Assembly (NCBI GenBank): GCA_021732845.1 | Contig: JAKFUF010000057.1 | Location: 1-64,000 of the forward strand | From: Planctomycetaceae bacterium | Lineage (GTDB): Bacteria > Planctomycetota > Planctomycetia > Planctomycetales > Planctomycetaceae | Reading direction: 5' to 3' | DNA length: 64,000 nt | In this document: in pieces, positions 31,211 through 56,956 of the stretch | Layout of the letters: each line of letters opens with the position of its first letter | How positions within the stretch are numbered: position 1 is the stretch's first letter | Position numbers and translations under genes: made by a program | Notes under the pieces: generated by a model | The model's database searches: none | What the model was told of the DNA's origin: nothing | What the model saw: the letters and a program-made list of their open reading frames with translations, nothing else

Positions 31211-32608
31211 TCAGCTTTGCAACTGCCGCTCGAACGAGATGCCGTACTTCTTCATCTTCTTGTACAGCGTCGTGCGATTGATCCCCAAGAGGTCGGCGGT
31301 TTCCTGGCGGTTCCAACCGTTGGATTCCAGGGCTTCCAGAATCAAAGTCTTTTCCGGGTTGGCGAGTGCGGCCTTGAGGCTGCCGCTCAGGCTGCGGGAC
31401 TGCATCGCCTCGGGGGTTGTGCCACGGCGGACGCACTCGGGCAGGTCTTCGACCCCGATGATCGGGCGTTTGGACAGCACGACGGAGCGTTCAACGATGT
31501 TGACCAGTTCGCGGACGTTGCCCGGCCAGTTGTAGCGCTGCAGCATCTGCACCGCCTGTTCGCTGAAGCCATGCACCGTCTTGTTCGACTGCTTGCGGAA
31601 CTCTTCGAGGTAGTGTTCCAGCAGCAGGGGGATGTCGCCCATCCGCTCCCGCAGGGCGGGTTGCTCCAGCATGATGACATTGATGCGGTAGTACAGATCC
31701 TGGCGGAAGGTGCCCTTGGCGACCGCGTCTTCCAGGTCGACGTTGGTGGCGAGAATCAGCCGGATGTCGACCTTGTGTGTTTTGTTGCCGCCCACCGGTT
31801 CGAACTCGCGGTCCTGCAGCACGCGCAGCAGCTTGACCTGCAGATTTGGCGAGGCGGTGGCGATTTCGTCGAGGAAGATCGTGCCCCCGTCGGCCTGCAG
31901 GAACTTTCCGATTTTGTCATGCACGGCGCCTGTAAAACTGCCGGCGACATGGCCGAACAGTTCGCTTTCGAGGAGTGAATCGGGAAGTGAGCCACAGGCC
32001 ATTTCGACGAACGGCTTTTGGCGGCGGCTGGACAACTGGTGAATCGAGCGGGCCGTCATCGTCTTGCCCGTGCCGCTTTCACCGAGGATCAAGACAGTCG
32101 TCCGGGTGTCGGCGACGCTCTCGATCAGGTCGAACATCTTCAGCATCTTGTAGTCGTGGCCGATGATGTTGCCCAGGCCGAAACGCTGGTCAAGCTGCCG
32201 CTTCAGGGTCCGGTTTTCGGCAATGATCTCGCGTTGTCCGAGTGCCCGCTGGATGCACAGCGACAAGTCATCGTCGATCAACGGCTTGGTCAAATAGTCA
32301 AACGCGCCCAGTCGGATCGCTTCGACGGCGTTTTCAATCGTCCCAAAGCCGGTGATCAGCACGACCGCCGTTTCCGGGGCCGCCGCCTTGATCGTTTCCA
32401 GCACATGGAACCCGTCGTCATCCTGCAAATTGACGTCGCACAGAACCACGTCAAACGGATACGTGGCTCCGCGGGAGATGGCCTCCCGTGCCGTCTGGCA
32501 GGTTTCGACGCGATGCCCGAAGCTGCGCAGAAAGTCTGCCATCGCTTCCAGGATATACTGATCGTCGTCAACGAGAAGCAGGTTGCCCGTGGTGAGCGTG
32601 GTATTCAT
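31211..32608 (-). CDS. Sigma-54-dependent response regulator, NtrC family
   Basis: The 465-residue protein has a receiver domain (D15/D16 acidic pair region, phosphoacceptor D58 in LCDVNL, K108), an AAA+ sigma-54 activator domain (Walker A GESGTGKT 176-183; GSFTGA 213-218 in place of GAFTGA; Walker [10 protein letters not shown] 231-239) and a Fis-type helix-turn-helix ([20 protein letters not shown]) at the C terminus. It activates transcription from -24/-12 promoters. No histidine kinase is adjacent. The ATG at 32608 is used; the upstream frame extension has no receiver-like sequence. Confidence 0.94.
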
Positions 32609-50258: not shown

Positions 50259-51149
50259 TCATTCAGCCCGCGCTGCCGCATGCTGAATCGGCCTTCGCGG
50301 AATGCGTTCCAGCAGCCCATCGCCGAAGGTTTGTTCCAAGTTGAGATGCGGCATGTGGATGTAGCCGATGTGGCAGCCACAGGTGCGGTTCGGACAGGGT
50401 TCGTCGCGCAGCAGGGATTGCCAGTTGTCCTGGTAGATGGAGCCGAGCGGCTGCCGAATGAAGTGGCAGCGGCGGATCGTGCCATCGCCATCAATGCTCA
50501 GGACCTCCGTGCCGCAGCGGCAGGCGCGGCCGAGGCTGGCATGGTATTCGGTGTTGATGCGGAACAGCGGGTCGAGGGTTTCGAAACGCGCGACATCCTC
50601 ATCGGTGTAGTATGCGGGTTGCTGCTTGTAGGCATTGATCCACAGATAAATCTCGGCCGGGAGTTCCTCCCGTAGTCGAGAGATCTCATCGGCGTCTTCT
50701 TTCAAGCCGACGGCCCCCACGCTGTAGGGAACCGAAAATTGATCCAACTGCCGACACTGGCTGAGAAATACAGGGCGCGTCGTTTGCGAAGGATGAAACG
50801 TGCACCACAGCCCCAGCCGTGAAACATTGGCTTCCGTCAGCCACTCCAGCGAACAGGAGAGGTTGGTTTGAATGGCAACTTTTTCGACATGCGGCTGGTG
50901 GCTCAACTCGATCAAAGCCCGCTGGTACCAACGGCGAACAAGCGCCTCGCCCCAAGGGGTAAAAAACAGCCGCAGCTTCCTGCCCGGAATCTCGGTGGCT
51001 TGGCGGCGAACCCAGGCAACAAATCTTTCGAGGGCGGCTCGATCCACCGCCAGTTCTTTCGCCGTTTCGTGATGTTTGGCGAACGGGCAGTAGTGGCACT
51101 CGTAGTTGCAGCTCGACAACGGACCGCGGTACAGCAATGTCAGCGACAT
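50259..51149 (-). CDS. STM4011 family radical SAM protein
   Basis: The 296-residue protein starts with a radical SAM motif in GPLSSCNYECHYCPFAKH (CxxxCxxC) and ends with a cysteine-rich region (RACRCGT, RRCHF, PNRTCGCHIGYIHM) that may bind further iron-sulfur clusters. The pattern matches the STM4011 group. Its start overlaps the end of the STM4012-type gene by ten bases, so they are co-translated. The function of the STM4011-4014 system is not established. Confidence 0.85.
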   Translation of the reverse strand: MSLTLLYRGPLSSCNYECHYCPFAKHHETAKELAVDRAALERFVAWVRRQATEIPGRKLRLFFTPWGEALVRRWYQRALIELSHQPHVEKVAIQTNLSCSLEWLTEANVSRLGLWCTFHPSQTTRPVFLSQCRQLDQFSVPYSVGAVGLKEDADEISRLREELPAEIYLWINAYKQQPAYYTDEDVARFETLDPLFRINTEYHASLGRACRCGTEVLSIDGDGTIRRCHFIRQPLGSIYQDNWQSLLRDEPCPNRTCGCHIGYIHMPHLNLEQTFGDGLLERIPRRPIQHAAARAE

Positions 51150-52522
51150 GCGGCGGTCTCCATCAAGTGCCGCACCCGTTCGGAGTAGAGCCACGGGCCG
51201 ATGGTGTCGGAACGTTCCAAGCCGGCAGCGTTCAATCGCAATTGGCGGACCTCCGTGTCGAACGCCGCCAAGTCCAGGTCCAGAAGTTCGGCGAGTGCCG
51301 GCAGATCGTCCCAGAGGTTGGACTTGAACTGCCGGGAATAGTCATCCAGCGACAGCCCGGCACTTTGCAGCAGCGACAGCAGCACGAACCGCCGGCGCTG
51401 CTCATCCTCAGTCAGAGCAATCCCATAACTCGCCGCCGCGAATTGGTCGGGAGACCGCTTCAAATAGTCCGCGAGGATCGACTGCACACCGGAACGCCCG
51501 ACGGCATATTCGGTGGAGTAATGCAGGGCCGGTGCATAAGACCGGGCACCGCAGCCCAGGCCGATCATGCCATCGCGCTGGCAGCAGTAGGCCGGAGCGG
51601 GCGGTTGCCGTTCTCGTTCAGGGTCCGCAGCCCGGCGGCAGAACATCCGCATGGAGACCTGCTCGTAGCCACGCTCCAGCAGAAAGTCGCGGCCGGCGCG
51701 GTAGGCCTCCAGCCGTTGGTCATCCCAGTCGTGTTCACGGCGGCCCAGGCCGGTCAGCGGGCGGACATAGAGCGGGTAGAGATAGATTTCTTCCGGCTCG
51801 TATCGGAGCACGGTGCGGATCGATTCGAGCCAACTGGCGACGGTTTGCCCTTCACCGCCATAGATCAGGTCCACATTCAAAACCGGCAGTCCTGCGGCGC
51901 GAACCATCTCCAGCGCGCGATGGACTTGTTCCACACGCTGCGGCCGGCCGAGTCCGGAAGACTCCGCATCGCTCAGCGTCTGCACCCCGAGGCTCAGCCG
52001 TTCGACGCCCCTCTCGCGGATCAAGGCGAGCTTGGCGGGATCCAGCGTTGCCGGGGACGCCTCCATGGAAGTGGGGATGCCCTTGGGGTCGGCTCCCATG
52101 ACATCGACCGCGATGCTGAACAGCGACTCCAGTTCCTGCTGGTTTAGAAAGGTGGGTGTGCCTCCCCCAAACGCCAGCCGCGCGAAGTGAGAGAAGCCGA
52201 GCGCGGCCTTCACGGTTTCGGCTTCAGACCGCAGGACTTTCAGATATTGCGTGACCCAGCCTGCTGCTGGCTGAGCCTGGGTGAACAGATTGCAGAAGCC
52301 GCAGCGGTACTCGCAGAACGGCACATGCAGATACAGGGAGAGGGCCTCGTCCGGCGTAGCCCAGAGCCGGTCCAGGGGCTGAGCCACGGCGAGGGGCCGA
52401 TAGGCGGTTTTGTGGGGATAGCCGTAGGTGTAGCCCACATACGGCGACCCGCCGAGCCACGCCGCCAGAGGCCGCGGAGCGGGCGTCCCGGTTACTGGTT
52501 GTGTATGAATGGAAAGACCCAT
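51140..52522 (-). CDS. STM4012 family radical SAM protein (HemN-like)
   Basis: The 460-residue protein begins GGSPYVGYTYGYPHKTAYRP, the signature opening of the STM4012 group, followed by the radical SAM motif in LHVPFCEYRCGFCNLF and HemN-like features (FGGGTPTFL; ERLSLGVQTLSD; LIYGGEGQT). It resembles coproporphyrinogen dehydrogenase but belongs to a separate group of unknown reaction. STM4013 and STM4014 partners are not next to this pair: the upstream neighbour is a DUF1559 gene. ATG at 52522 chosen over an earlier start. Confidence 0.88.
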   Translation of the reverse strand: MGLSIHTQPVTGTPAPRPLAAWLGGSPYVGYTYGYPHKTAYRPLAVAQPLDRLWATPDEALSLYLHVPFCEYRCGFCNLFTQAQPAAGWVTQYLKVLRSEAETVKAALGFSHFARLAFGGGTPTFLNQQELESLFSIAVDVMGADPKGIPTSMEASPATLDPAKLALIRERGVERLSLGVQTLSDAESSGLGRPQRVEQVHRALEMVRAAGLPVLNVDLIYGGEGQTVASWLESIRTVLRYEPEEIYLYPLYVRPLTGLGRREHDWDDQRLEAYRAGRDFLLERGYEQVSMRMFCRRAADPERERQPPAPAYCCQRDGMIGLGCGARSYAPALHYSTEYAVGRSGVQSILADYLKRSPDQFAAASYGIALTEDEQRRRFVLLSLLQSAGLSLDDYSRQFKSNLWDDLPALAELLDLDLAAFDTEVRQLRLNAAGLERSDTIGPWLYSERVRHLMETAACR

Positions 52523-52678: not shown

Positions 52679-53710
52679 TTAGAATTCACCGGGAACTTCA
52701 CCCTTGTTGCGGCTGCCCAGCGCCTGCCATGTGGCCAGACTGATGCTGTTGCCGATGAACTGCACATGGCCATCGCAGAACAGGGAATGCACTCCGCCCG
52801 TGTGGCGGCTGTGGCTCGCGACATTCAGCGAGAGCCGGTCCCAGGCGGCATTGGTGCGGATGCTGTGCGGCAGTCCGCCGCGGCAATCGACATCGCGATC
52901 GTTCGGACCGCGGATGTGGTTGTACATCGAATGTCCCGGGGCTCCGTAGAGCCAGCGGCTGCCGCGCGTCTGCTGAAGCAGCAGACCATTGCCATGACAC
53001 TGAGAGGCGTAATCGGTGAGTTCGGGGCCGTTGGAGGTGTTGTCGTTGCCGCTGGTCAGTACAAACCCGCGTGTCGGGCTGAATCCATCCCACAGTGACG
53101 GGCCTCCCTCCGACTTGATCGTCTCGCTGATGCAAACCGTGGAGCTTGAGCCATCCAGGATGTCGGCGAACTTCACCGAGGAGTTCTCGAAGAAGATGCC
53201 TGTCACGGCCACGCCGCCGGGGTTCCGCAGCGACAAGGGGTAGGTGGTGCCGGTGTTCAGCGGATAGTTATGGACGCCGCTGTTGACCACGACGCCGTTG
53301 ACTGTGTTTGTCTGCAGCACCCGCACGCCATCGCTGGGACAGAGCAGGAATTGAACGTTCTGGCCCAGCGCTGCGCCATTCAGGGCGGGGTCGTCCGGGT
53401 CGGCATTGAAGTTGATCTGGTTGTAAAGCGGTGCCTGATCGAGATACGGCAGCAGATGCGCGTAGGCGGAATAACAACGGCCCGCGCCGTCGCTCATGCT
53501 CCGCAGGCGGCCGGGCGGAAACAACTTGTGGGCTTCGGCATAGCTTTGCAGCCCAAGACCTATTTGCTTCAGGTTGTTCCGGCACTGGGTGCGGCGGGCG
53601 GACTCCCGCGCCTGCTGCACCGCCGGGAGCAGCAACGCCACCAGGATGGCGATGATGGCGATCACCACCAGAAGTTCGATGAGGGTGAAGCCACGGCGGG
53701 AGTGTTTCAT
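52679..53710 (-). CDS. DUF1559 domain protein with prepilin-type N terminus
   Basis: The 343-residue protein has a type IV pilin-like leader (RRGFTLIELLVVIAIIAILVA), with cleavage expected between G and F, then the DUF1559 domain with QARESARRTQCRNNLKQIGL near the N terminus and the C-terminal HSLFCDGHVQFI motif. Planctomycetes carry dozens of these pseudopilin-like proteins. The ATG at 53710 directly precedes KHSRRGF. Confidence 0.94.
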   Translation of the reverse strand: MKHSRRGFTLIELLVVIAIIAILVALLLPAVQQARESARRTQCRNNLKQIGLGLQSYAEAHKLFPPGRLRSMSDGAGRCYSAYAHLLPYLDQAPLYNQINFNADPDDPALNGAALGQNVQFLLCPSDGVRVLQTNTVNGVVVNSGVHNYPLNTGTTYPLSLRNPGGVAVTGIFFENSSVKFADILDGSSSTVCISETIKSEGGPSLWDGFSPTRGFVLTSGNDNTSNGPELTDYASQCHGNGLLLQQTRGSRWLYGAPGHSMYNHIRGPNDRDVDCRGGLPHSIRTNAAWDRLSLNVASHSRHTGGVHSLFCDGHVQFIGNSISLATWQALGSRNKGEVPGEF

Positions 53711-53811: not shown

Positions 53812-54419
53812 TCAAGCCTGGCTGCCAGCGGCGAGGGCGAAGATCACCAGGATGAGCATCCAGATGACGCCCAGGGCGTGCCAGAACCAGGCACAGACCG
53901 TCACCCCCACGAGTACTCGTGGTCGTACCGGTCGGAGCAGGCCTGCAGCGTCACCCAGACCAGCAGCATCATCGCCAGCGTGAAGTGCATTGCGTGCAGG
54001 GCGGTCAGGCAGGTGACAAAGGCATTGGCCCCGGTCTCGACCGCTTCGGGCTGCTGATGGCGGACGAGCCACGCGATGCCGTAGGTTTGAACGGCGACAA
54101 AGGCGGTCCCCGCCACGAGGGCGAGAAGCAGGGCGCGCCGAAACGGCCGCTGCCGTTCCAGCCGCACCGAGTTTTGCGCGTGCTGCAGCAGCACGCTGCC
54201 GGCAACCAGCAGCAGCGTTGTCCCCCAGAACACCGGGGGGAAGCCGGCGTCCCGGCTGCCCGGAACATGCGCCGGCGCGGCAGGCGGCGGCCACAACCGG
54301 TACATGCCTGCCGCCAGGGAAAAAGCCACGCCAAACAACACGCTGCACGCGACGATGAAGCGCACGGTGACCGTGCTGTTCGGTGGTTTCCGCAGGTGGA
54401 TGACCGGGCTCTGGGACAT
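53812..54419 (-). pseudogene. Haem-copper oxidase subunit III-like gene with a one-base frameshift
   Basis: Reading from ATG 54419 gives 172 residues with four or five membrane segments and the subunit III pattern (TALHAMHFTLAMMLLVW), ending DRYDHEYSWG at a stop (53901-53903). The normal family continuation, VTVCAWFWHALGVIW to the C terminus, is present immediately downstream in the next frame. The break falls at a run of five G (53904-53908 on this strand); a sixth G would join the two into about 202 residues. No other oxidase subunits are nearby; the start is 13 bp after the sensor kinase stop, so they may share a transcript. A sequencing slip, a real mutation or a programmed shift are all possible. 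Confidence 0.75.
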
Positions 54420-54432
54420 GAAACGACGGCCG

Positions 54433-56394
54433 TCAGGGGTTGAGCGTTTTACCCGAAAGATTGCGGTCGATCCGCTTGAGCTGGACCGCGTCGGCGGAGG
54501 TCAGGCCGAGCACCTCGCCCAGCGGGCGCGGCTGGTCTTTCAGCACCAGGGGCACACGCAGGGTGAAGATGCTGCCCTTGCCCACCTCGCTCTGCACGCT
54601 CACCTCGCCGCCCAGCAGTTTTGAGAGTTCTTTCACGATCGACAGCCCCAACCCGGTGCCGGCATATTCCCTCGTCAGGGAACTTGACCGGCCGGCGCGG
54701 CTGGTGTTTCCCTGGCGGAATTTTTCGAAGATCGTTTCCTGGTCCTCCAGCGGGATCCCCACGCCGGTGTCCTCCACCAGAATCTCGGCCTCGTCGTTTT
54801 CAACGCGGCGGGTTACGACCTGCACCCGGCCCCCTTCCGGCGTGAACTTCACGGCGTTGGACAACAAATTGTAGAGAATCTGCTGCAGCTTGCCCTGGTC
54901 CTGCGTCAACTGGACCAGCGTGTCATCGGTTTCGCACGACACGTCGATGCTGCGCTTTTCGGCCAGCGGGCGCATCATGCCGATGAGCCGTTCAATCAGG
55001 TCGTTCAGCGAAAAGTCCGTCAGGTGCAGGTCCATCTTTCCGGCCTCGATCTTGGCCAGGTCGAGGATGTCGTTGACCAGGACCAGCAGATCCTTCCCGG
55101 AACTCTGGATATTGCGGGCGTACCGCTGCTCCTTGTCGTTGAGCGTGGTGATTCCCGCCAGGACCTCGCTGAACCCCAGAATGCTGTTGAGCGGCGTCCG
55201 CAGTTCGTGCGTCATCGTCGCCAAGAAGTCATTCTTGAGGTTGTTCAGCTCGAACAGCCGCATGTTCGCCTGGGCCAGTTCGTCCACCTTGGCGTCGAGT
55301 TCTCCGTTCACCTGCCGCAGCTCTTCCTGCGCAGCCACGAGATGCCGCAGCATGCGGTTGAACGCCTGGCTCAGTTCCTCGTACTCGTCGCCGGTGCGGA
55401 TGTCGGCCCGCTGGTCGAGGTTCCCCCGCGAAATCGCGTCGCTCACGTCTTTCAGGTGCAACACCGGCTTGACGATCACATACCGCACGATGGCATAGGC
55501 GCCGGTCATCGCCAGAAAGGCCGTCACAATGGCGGTGGCAATCAGGATGGCATTGTTCCAGGCGACATCCCGTTCGGTCGCCTCCAGTGGAAAGGCCACC
55601 TTCACCATCCCCAGCAGATCCCCCTCCTTGACCAGTGGCTCACCCATCTGGACGACCTTGCAGGGGACTTTCTGCATGCCCGCCTCCCGCGCTGCCTGGA
55701 GCCGGCGCTCTCCGGCGATCAACTCGTAGCCACCCTTTTTGGGACGGACCATCAGCGGGTCGATCATTTCGCTTTCGGCCACCGCCTGCACAAGTGCGCG
55801 AAACGCGTCGGAATCGAGATTGCGGGTGGAGTTCTGGTAGGGGTTGGGGGAGATCTTGGCGATGTCGATGCTGACCGTCTGCCCCTCCCGCGCGGTGACG
55901 GTGCTCTCATCGCTGCGGGTGTGGCACCGCAGGCACGACTTGGCGGCCCGCACCGCGCCATAGTACTGGTACTCGCGCTTGTCGCGCTGGATGCGGGTGA
56001 CTTCGTCGCCCTTGCCCAGCCCCATTTCGTGCAGGACTTCGTGATCCACCTGGTCCTTCGGCTGCCGCCGCCCGTCGGAATTGCCCATCGGACGGACGAG
56101 GTCCCAGTGATAGTCCTGCAGGTCGACCGGCTTCACATCCTTGGCCAGGGAATCGATGACGTCCGAGAACTCGCCGTCGGTCTCGAACCATTTCCAGTGG
56201 CTCTCCAGAATAATCGGAGCGATCAGTTGCCGCCCGGTCATCCGGTTCTGATCATACACGAGGCCGACCGTCAGCCGGCCGTAGACATAAAAACTGCCGG
56301 TGATCAGCAGCATCAGCCCGCCGCCAAACAGGAAGCGGCATTTCCGCTCCAAGCTGGCTTCACCCAGCAGGCGTTTGAACGTGCGATAAGACAT
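54433..56394 (-). CDS. Sensor histidine kinase: DUF3365-like haem sensor interrupted by a ParB N-terminal-like domain
   Basis: From ATG 56394 the protein has 653 residues. Order: membrane segment 1 (20-41); an extracytoplasmic DUF3365-like domain with a haem site SCLRCH (153-158); a ParB/Spo0J N-terminal-like domain (about 173-249) with SISPNPYQ-type box (IAKISPNPYQ), IDPLMVRPKKGGYELIAGERR and AAREAGMQKVPCKV; the end of the DUF3365 domain (GDLLGMVKVAFPLEAT); membrane segment 2 (281-303); HAMP; coiled coil; HisKA with H396 in MTHELRTPLNS; HATPase with NLLSNAVKF, DTGVGI and GTGLGLSIV. The kinase core is intact. No response regulator is adjacent. The upstream TTG at 56433 is less likely. The ParB-like insert is unexpected in this position. 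Confidence 0.9.
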   Translation of the reverse strand: MSYRTFKRLLGEASLERKCRFLFGGGLMLLITGSFYVYGRLTVGLVYDQNRMTGRQLIAPIILESHWKWFETDGEFSDVIDSLAKDVKPVDLQDYHWDLVRPMGNSDGRRQPKDQVDHEVLHEMGLGKGDEVTRIQRDKREYQYYGAVRAAKSCLRCHTRSDESTVTAREGQTVSIDIAKISPNPYQNSTRNLDSDAFRALVQAVAESEMIDPLMVRPKKGGYELIAGERRLQAAREAGMQKVPCKVVQMGEPLVKEGDLLGMVKVAFPLEATERDVAWNNAILIATAIVTAFLAMTGAYAIVRYVIVKPVLHLKDVSDAISRGNLDQRADIRTGDEYEELSQAFNRMLRHLVAAQEELRQVNGELDAKVDELAQANMRLFELNNLKNDFLATMTHELRTPLNSILGFSEVLAGITTLNDKEQRYARNIQSSGKDLLVLVNDILDLAKIEAGKMDLHLTDFSLNDLIERLIGMMRPLAEKRSIDVSCETDDTLVQLTQDQGKLQQILYNLLSNAVKFTPEGGRVQVVTRRVENDEAEILVEDTGVGIPLEDQETIFEKFRQGNTSRAGRSSSLTREYAGTGLGLSIVKELSKLLGGEVSVQSEVGKGSIFTLRVPLVLKDQPRPLGEVLGLTSADAVQLKRIDRNLSGKTLNP

Positions 56395-56503
56395 GGGCTG
56401 CTGCCAGAAAACCGGGAACGTAGCGATTGCCAAGTAATTCTACGATTCTGACGTTTCCACGTCATCGTCAGTCGGCTAAGCGAAACAGGACACAGGACGA
56501 CGC

Positions 56504-56956
56504 ATGCAACTCCTTCGCAAAATCATGGCCGTGGTCATCGGGATTGTCGCGGGCAGCGTGTTCAACATGGCGGTCGTGACGGCGTCCCATGCCGTCTTTC
56601 CGCTGCCGCCAGGCGTTGATCCCAACGATTTCGAGGCGTTCAAGGCTCATGTCGAGGCTCACGGATTGCCAGCGGGCGCCCTGATCCTGGTGCTCATCGC
56701 GCACGCTGGCGGCAGCTTCGTGAGCGGCTTTGTCTGCGGGCTCATCGCCAGACGACCCTGGCATGCCGCCGCCATCGGCCTGGGGCTTTTGTGGACCTGC
56801 GGGGGCGCGGCCATGCTGTTCATGCTCCCCGCCCCGGCCTGGTTTGCCGTGGCGGACATCGCCCTGTACATCCCGGCGGCTGTGTTGGGAGTCCGCATGG
56901 GTGGAGCATTGACCGCCAGTCGTCCCCCGCGACCCGCAGAGTCAGCCGGCAGTTGA
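56504..56956 (+). CDS. Small four-segment membrane protein
   Basis: The 150-residue protein has four hydrophobic segments (MAVVIGIVAGSVFNMAVV; ALILVLIAHAGGSFVSGFV; AAIGLGLLWTCGGAAMLFM; FAVADIALYIPAAVLGV) with a short acidic loop after the first. It resembles small conserved membrane proteins of unknown function found in many bacteria. Divergent from the sensor kinase gene, with 109 bp between them. Confidence 0.75.
   Translation: MQLLRKIMAVVIGIVAGSVFNMAVVTASHAVFPLPPGVDPNDFEAFKAHVEAHGLPAGALILVLIAHAGGSFVSGFVCGLIARRPWHAAAIGLGLLWTCGGAAMLFMLPAPAWFAVADIALYIPAAVLGVRMGGALTASRPPRPAESAGS

Follow-up and report, generated by a model that had tools for sequence, protein, structure and literature searches.

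What is a domain of partition proteins doing inside the haem sensor of a membrane-bound histidine kinase? The question is raised by a gene on the minus strand of a 64,000-nucleotide stretch (hereafter the window) of a Planctomycetaceae genome. According to the original prediction, made from the letters of the DNA, a ParB N-terminal domain is nested between the CxxCH haem site and the last strand of the sensor domain, and is either a nucleotide or small-molecule sensor acquired by insertion or an in-frame selfish insert. We find a complete ParB/Srx-type N-terminal domain of ~82 residues in frame inside the haem sensor kinase. The features on which the argument turns are collected in Table 1.

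Table 1. The kinase gene and its parts, with positions in the window.
Feature	Residues	Position	Strand	Basis
Whole gene, sensor histidine kinase, 653 aa		54433..56394	(-)	ORF search, translation, Pfam
First membrane helix (TM1)	~21-43	56266..56334	(-)	Read from sequence
N-terminal part of haem sensor (Tll0287-like / sCache_heme)	44-171	55882..56265	(-)	Pfam PF11845 (below cut-off), orthologue profile
CLRCH, predicted haem c attachment motif	154-158	55921..55935	(-)	Motif search
Inserted ParB N-terminal (ParB/Srx) domain	~172-253 (edges within a few residues)	55636..55881	(-)	Pfam PF02195, PDB ParB/Spo0J, predicted fold, Foldseek
NPYQ of box I (P-motif 1)	184-187	55834..55845	(-)	Alignment, motif search
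AVAESEMIDP, region of the cytosine-recognising C-motif		55756..55785	(-)	Alignments to ParBs
GERR, box II / P-motif 2, intact	228-231	55702..55713	(-)	Motif search
C-terminal part of haem sensor (GDLLGMVKVAFPL strand)	254-280	55555..55635	(-)	Orthologue profile, alignment
Second membrane helix (TM2)	~277-308	55471..55566	(-)	Hydropathy windows
HAMP	306-353	55336..55479	(-)	Pfam
HisKA	387-452	55039..55236	(-)	Pfam
HATPase_c	499-616	54547..54900	(-)	Pfam

The open reading frame of the kinase starts with an ATG at 56394, and a possible upstream TTG at 56433 would extend the protein to 666 amino acids. Its parts follow one another as TM1, a Tll0287-like/DUF3365 haem domain, TM2, HAMP, HisKA and HATPase_c; the last three, recognized by Pfam, are those of a HAMP sensor histidine kinase, and a His box, HELRTP, is found at residues 396-401. 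The haem domain carries the CxxCH motif of the sCache_heme/Tll0287-like family, at which covalent attachment of haem c is predicted. Its Pfam match (residues 110-165) ends at profile position 115 of 144 and scores 22.3 bits against a cut-off of 24.1, or 24.1 bits when scored with the neighbouring domains in frame. Scores in four orthologues fall on both sides of the same cut-off (25.1 and 28.3 bits above, 20.4 and 22.3 below). The match runs to profile position 144 of 144 in three of them and ends at 116 in the fourth, which has a 67-residue loop.

The identity of the inserted domain is supported by profile, database and model comparisons. Pfam ParB_N (PF02195) matches residues 175-256 with E=5.5e-16 and 58.8 bits, compared with a curated cut-off of 26.3, and the closest PDB sequences found by phmmer are Spo0J/ParB proteins (6sdk, 2.3e-14; 1vz0, 6.8e-14; 4umk, 5.6e-11). 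In an AlphaFold2 model of residues 41-285, for which the alignment consisted of 18 ParB fragments only, the insert is predicted to fold as beta-alpha-beta-beta-alpha-beta, with a block pLDDT of 78-94; the haem-domain flanks are poorly modelled (model mean pLDDT 57.9, with 148 of the 245 residues below 50). Foldseek matched the insert model to chains of ParB, Noc, KorB, sulfiredoxin and PadC, among them 6sdk, 7bnk and 7bm8. The alignment with 7bnk gives 1.9 A over 81 columns and that with 6sdk_A 2.0 A over 82, the one with 6sdk_B being longer and poorer (11.1 A over 114 columns); the model thus superposes on CDP-bound ParB at 1.9-2.0 A. Chance similarity to ParB is ruled out by the Pfam and PDB matches, the predicted fold and Foldseek. 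The ParB N-terminal domain of the original prediction is thus real, and similarity to the ParB_N profile, the lack of which would have told against it, is strong. The overall fold is shared with sulfiredoxin as well (Foldseek 6ky4, 1.9 A over 79 columns), but the sequence of the insert is closer to ParB, and we take it to lack the catalytic cysteine loop of Srx.

The rest of a partition protein is missing. A Pfam scan of the kinase found neither the HTH parS-binding domain nor the C-terminal dimerisation domain that mark a ParB partition protein, nor any other DNA-binding domain. A box III-like motif was not found in the kinase by a pattern that is an imperfect test, detecting 22 of 30 ParBs of the family. 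That neither box III nor a DNA-binding helix-turn-helix follows the insert had been foreseen correctly.

The possibility that the segment is an ordinary part of the sensor fold is ruled out by insert-free orthologues, by the alignment and by the profile. A strong kinase match (E 7e-180 to 3e-105; 51-74% identity, starting at residues 244-263) was obtained in 55 of the 58 other genomes of the relatives search, weaker ones only in the remaining three (G014, G017 and G036). The N-terminal half matches separately among the matches listed; in G008, for example, residues 1-159 match at 53% identity, directly upstream of 251-630. Aligned with 29 orthologues, the insert segment faces a gap, bar a few loop residues in some. 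All 58 orthologue rows (50 different sequences) have a C-x2/3-CH motif, and the loop from there to the GDLLG strand is 5-67 residues long (at most 20 in 54 of the 58, with the strand alignment loose in the rows with the longest loops), compared with 99 in the insert-bearing kinase. A profile of the 50 orthologues fits the whole protein in two pieces, positions 19-200 on residues 1-182 and positions 180-559 on residues 248-627. With fragments that we cut at residues 171 and 254, positions 19-189 fall on the N-terminal flank and 188-243 on the C-terminal flank (fitted residues 1-169 and from 255 on). The flanks joined at these cuts give a single match of 273 bits to the orthologue profile, which runs through the joint; the insert alone scores -3 bits.

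These results fit the limits first given for the insert, residues 173-249, to within a few residues, and the insert is absent from all orthologues examined. The proposal of a nested insertion is therefore borne out; what it had overlooked is how variable the host site is. Since the length of the loop varies among orthologues, it is a likely site to accommodate a domain, and the stretch that follows CxxCH appears to be a hot spot for insertions. Two orthologous kinases have a long loop of another composition at this position, one of 67 residues that is acidic and proline-rich (L109, G052:C1) and one of 40 residues rich in K, E and A (L095, G146:C103).

Where the insert came from can be narrowed down in part. 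Its best relatives in the family search are the genome's own ParB (45% identity) and the ParB of G008 (49%). A recent copy of the genome's own parB is ruled out by the identity of only 45% of the best match within the assembly. Records of phages (best identity 43%, among the best 8 of 21) and plasmids (46%, among the best 8 of 253) come no closer than the ParBs of the family. A tree of 46 rows, built with whole ParBs and without L081, L077, L079 and L072, places the insert as sister to 30 family ParBs (29 relatives and the genome's own), apart from 15 others. The support for this grouping is 91/89, below the starred level, in a tree where the branch of the insert is long and the insert fills only 27% of the columns. 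A first tree, made from the short domain only and distorted by a very long row (L081), left the insert outside the other 48 ParBs without a clear placement. In the region 55500-56000 no repeat of at least 8 bases flanks the insert on both sides, and a target-site duplication of that length is therefore not supported.

The degree to which the insert has been preserved was compared with 900 neutral-drift runs, started from three parB genes and run to the identity level of the insert. It scores 92.5 bits against the family ParB profile, where the maximum across the runs is 65.2, and because of this excess it must have changed under a demand to stay ParB-like, before or after insertion. It also keeps 26 of the 41 positions that are at least 90% identical among the 30 family ParBs (many of which are closely related to each other); the neutral runs keep 18-19 on average with a maximum of 26, reached once in 900, so that the count by itself barely exceeds what drift produces. 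The constraint on the ParB fold may predate the insertion. As judged from these sequence comparisons, the insert is related to ParB and has stayed closer to the ParB fold than neutral drift would have left it.

The nucleotide pocket was mapped on Caulobacter crescentus ParB by counting along the alignment from Q58, and the S, G and GERR positions agree with published numbering (PMC8367383). Three positions are replaced in the insert (S74 by A204, G79 by E209 and Q82 by D212). In box I, the PR at 59-60 has become ST after an extra N (NST), and an arginine, R191, lies one place past the position of R60, where it could possibly make a shifted contact. The equivalents of Q58, G101, E102, R103 and R104 are kept, such that NPxQ and GERR are intact. 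Elsewhere the changed residues are nearly invariant, the equivalents of R60, S74 and G79 being present in all 30 family ParBs and, among 19 others, in 18, 18 and 19, respectively. C. crescentus ParB variants R60A, S74A and G79S are described as binding CTP weakly or not at all, and the same holds for R103A, R104A, N136A and R139A (PMC8367383). Compared with a ParB CTPase, the insert keeps box II; its S74 and G79 equivalents are changed, R60 is displaced by one, and box III, in which N136 and R139 are located, was not found. Moreover, CTP is not expected outside the cytoplasm. On these grounds the nucleotide or small-molecule sensor proposed at the outset does not hold up as a CTP sensor of the ParB type; a different ligand is still conceivable.

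The compartment is suggested by the architecture of the kinase. HAMP-HisKA following the second helix must be cytoplasmic, and attachment of haem c at CxxCH takes place outside the cytoplasm, so the topology suggests that the ParB-like domain is periplasmic, where it would lie beside the haem. TM2 is clear by hydropathy, TM1 stays below the Kyte-Doolittle threshold of 1.6, and the N-terminus is basic (6 K/R compared with 2 D/E in residues 1-22). The placement outside the cytoplasm that was proposed originally is supported to this extent. In a preprint that treats DUF3365 and Tll0287 as one family, sCache_heme domains are placed in the periplasm, and their CxxCH belongs to an insertion that separates strands 3 and 4 (PMC12889525). 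Of the two sCache_heme proteins studied there, the one that carries a signalling part showed sensor-like NO binding and no stable complex with O2 (PMC12889525).

The fusion of a ParB domain into a kinase is known from a single draft genome in 262 contigs. No second fused copy was seen among the matches listed with the insert as query in the family (170 genomes) and the phylum (392), or with residues 90-330 as query in the class (397 genomes, 394 with a match), the class and phylum genomes being samples from larger groups. Among the matches listed in the class search, all rows except the kinase's own start at query residue 129 or beyond. One that starts at 129, in G146, was rejected as a second fusion; its 40-residue loop is rich in K, E and A and is not ParB. 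In the family and phylum searches, 14 listed ParB-like matches lie in frames of at least 450 aa, none with CxxCH or kinase similarity, and 29 matches in shorter frames (L036-L064) were aligned as ParBs beside the genome's own ParB. Viral contigs gave one distant kinase, at 30% identity. Within the assembly the insert as query matches only itself and the genome's own ParB; two proteins of more distant similarity come in addition from a search for the ParB_N family. ParB_N is also found within a 453-aa frame of this genome (L004, G000:C72:38603-38842), which is presumably a ParB_N fusion to a DNA methylase. Such ParB-DNA methylase fusions are described as frequent in phages (PMC12704722).

The ORFs adjoining the kinase (53904-54419 and 56504-56953) have no match in 58 orthologue loci, which reach only ~1-2 kb on each side of the kinase and in which the kinase itself, as a control, was found in 58 of 58. 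The first of them, on the minus strand, begins 13 bases after the kinase stop and encodes 172 aa with hydrophobic stretches; its sequence resembles cytochrome oxidase subunit III, but its sole Pfam match is a weak one to Salyut (E=0.0064). A radical SAM protein with a HemN_C match below cut-off is encoded at 51143-52489 (minus strand). Two further Tll0287-like domains occur on one contig of the same genome (G000:C5:38803-39306, L115, and 31358-31747, L116), in frames of 673 and 196 aa. DUF1559 (PF07596), a mark of planctomycetes, has 62 matches in the genome, one of them in the window at 52742-53617, and 0 in 14 control genomes. Rfam had no match within the 64,000-nucleotide window.

The explanation that we favour, with a confidence evenly poised between belief and doubt, is that the insert, derived from ParB and lodged next to the haem in a loop that tolerates additions, serves as an accessory module, is no longer a CTP switch and tunes a kinase of the NO/redox type. 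The ParB-like domain would sit in the periplasm next to the sensor haem and would be neither a clamp nor a switch operated by CTP. It may bind a small ligand or a protein, or serve the sensor as a rigid spacer, and could alter haem access or the packing of the sensor dimer, thereby tuning the response of the kinase to the haem ligand. By analogy with other sCache_heme proteins, the signal of that ligand may be NO or redox state. Should the insert have a ligand of its own, the kept phosphate-binding GERR loop would be the likely contact. In a further-reaching form, which we regard as rather unlikely, the ParB fold would be an extracytoplasmic sensory module with the GERR loop kept and the base pocket re-shaped, and the receptor would integrate two signals, the second coming from a phosphorylated ligand or a partner protein. 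The main rival, tentative and less probable than the accessory module, is that a ParB fragment entered a permissive surface loop by illegitimate recombination, folds on its own and is tolerated as a passenger with no role. The loop lengths of the orthologues indicate that added length is tolerated, no second genome has the fusion among the matches listed, and the changes at the CTP site are as expected after release from ParB duty. The profile fit above all 900 neutral runs argues against a mere passenger, though the same fit could result from a need to fold or from constraint that acted before the insertion.

The other rivals fare less well than the accessory module and the passenger. A sensor outside the cytoplasm for a nucleotide or some other phosphorylated ligand, with the base pocket re-shaped and the ligand signalling to the kinase, would agree with the intact GERR and NPxQ and the changed C-motif, but we consider it improbable in view of the displaced R60, the absent box III and the scarcity of free nucleotides outside cells. 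Experience with other ParB folds cuts both ways: many noncanonical ones are described as lacking box III, binding of ATP or GTP is known for some, the sequence did not reveal which nucleotide is chosen, and 17 of 28 ParB-fold proteins bound no NTP when tested (PMC12704722). A misjoin in the draft assembly would account for a fusion seen in one genome with no second genome confirming it; it is very hard to reconcile with two joints that are in frame at the loop borders with no stop codon, with a GC3 of 0.83 for residues 168-254 like that of the flanks (0.83-0.86), and with a best match elsewhere in the assembly of 45% (the own ParB), which leaves no copy of another gene there. That the sensor domain lies inside the cell and reads cytoplasmic CTP has in its favour the usual cytoplasmic role of ParB domains and the weak hydropathy signal of the first membrane helix; with haem c attached outside, HAMP-HisKA inside, a basic N-terminus and altered CTP contacts, we give it almost no credence. 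Hardly any is left, either, for the selfish in-frame element of the original prediction, whether intein-like or a mobile cassette. The insertion is in frame and clean, yet the Pfam scan revealed no splicing, endonuclease or transposition domain, the flanking repeats sought are absent, and with the insert as query nothing but itself and the genome's own ParB was matched.

Each part of the protein has known counterparts. With the N-terminal domain of chromosomal ParB/Spo0J the insert has the fold, NPxQ and GERR in common, and its best matches are ParBs of the same family; it differs in the missing box III, HTH and dimerisation domain, in the three altered CTP contacts and in its location inside a membrane kinase. 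PadC of Myxococcus xanthus and other non-partition ParB-fold proteins use the ParB fold in another role, as here. PadC is reported to bind CTP and to recruit ParA to the bactofilin cytoskeleton (PMC12704722), without noticeable CTPase activity (PMC8367383), whereas in the insert the residues in contact with CTP are changed. With the sCache_heme (Tll0287/DUF3365) histidine kinases the protein shares the CxxCH haem sensor, TM2 and HAMP-HisKA-HATPase_c, and it differs in having a ParB domain where 50 different orthologues have a loop. A 2025 survey gives as fusion partners of ParB folds HTH, dimerisation, HNH, UPF0020, DUF3850, DUF4417, methyltransferase, CBS, ASCH and MT-A70 domains, that is, DNA- and RNA-related partners and CBS (PMC12704722). 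Its main text does not contain the words "periplasm", "transmembrane" or "extracellular", the kinases that we met there are not histidine kinases, and we came across no ParB fusion to a histidine kinase and none that is membrane-spanning or periplasmic (PMC12704722). In the literature, supplements and subscription journals aside, we found no report of ParB/ParBc fused to a histidine kinase; one paper mentions both PF02195 and PF00512, naming ParBc as a domain of the neighbourhood.

In conclusion, the fold and the kinase family are both known, we found no report of their combination or of the fold in this probable compartment, and we regard the case as real and unusual. ParB folds have been studied as cytoplasmic nucleotide switches. 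If true, its presence in a haem sensor outside the cytoplasm would bring the ParB fold into a further compartment and into signalling across the membrane. The insert-bearing kinase and its insert-free orthologues form a natural with/without pair for the effect of a domain insertion on a sensor. The finding further points to the loop following CxxCH as a site that tolerates insertions; it is in this stretch that sCache_heme itself is proposed to have arisen through insertion of a cytochrome fragment (PMC12889525, preprint).
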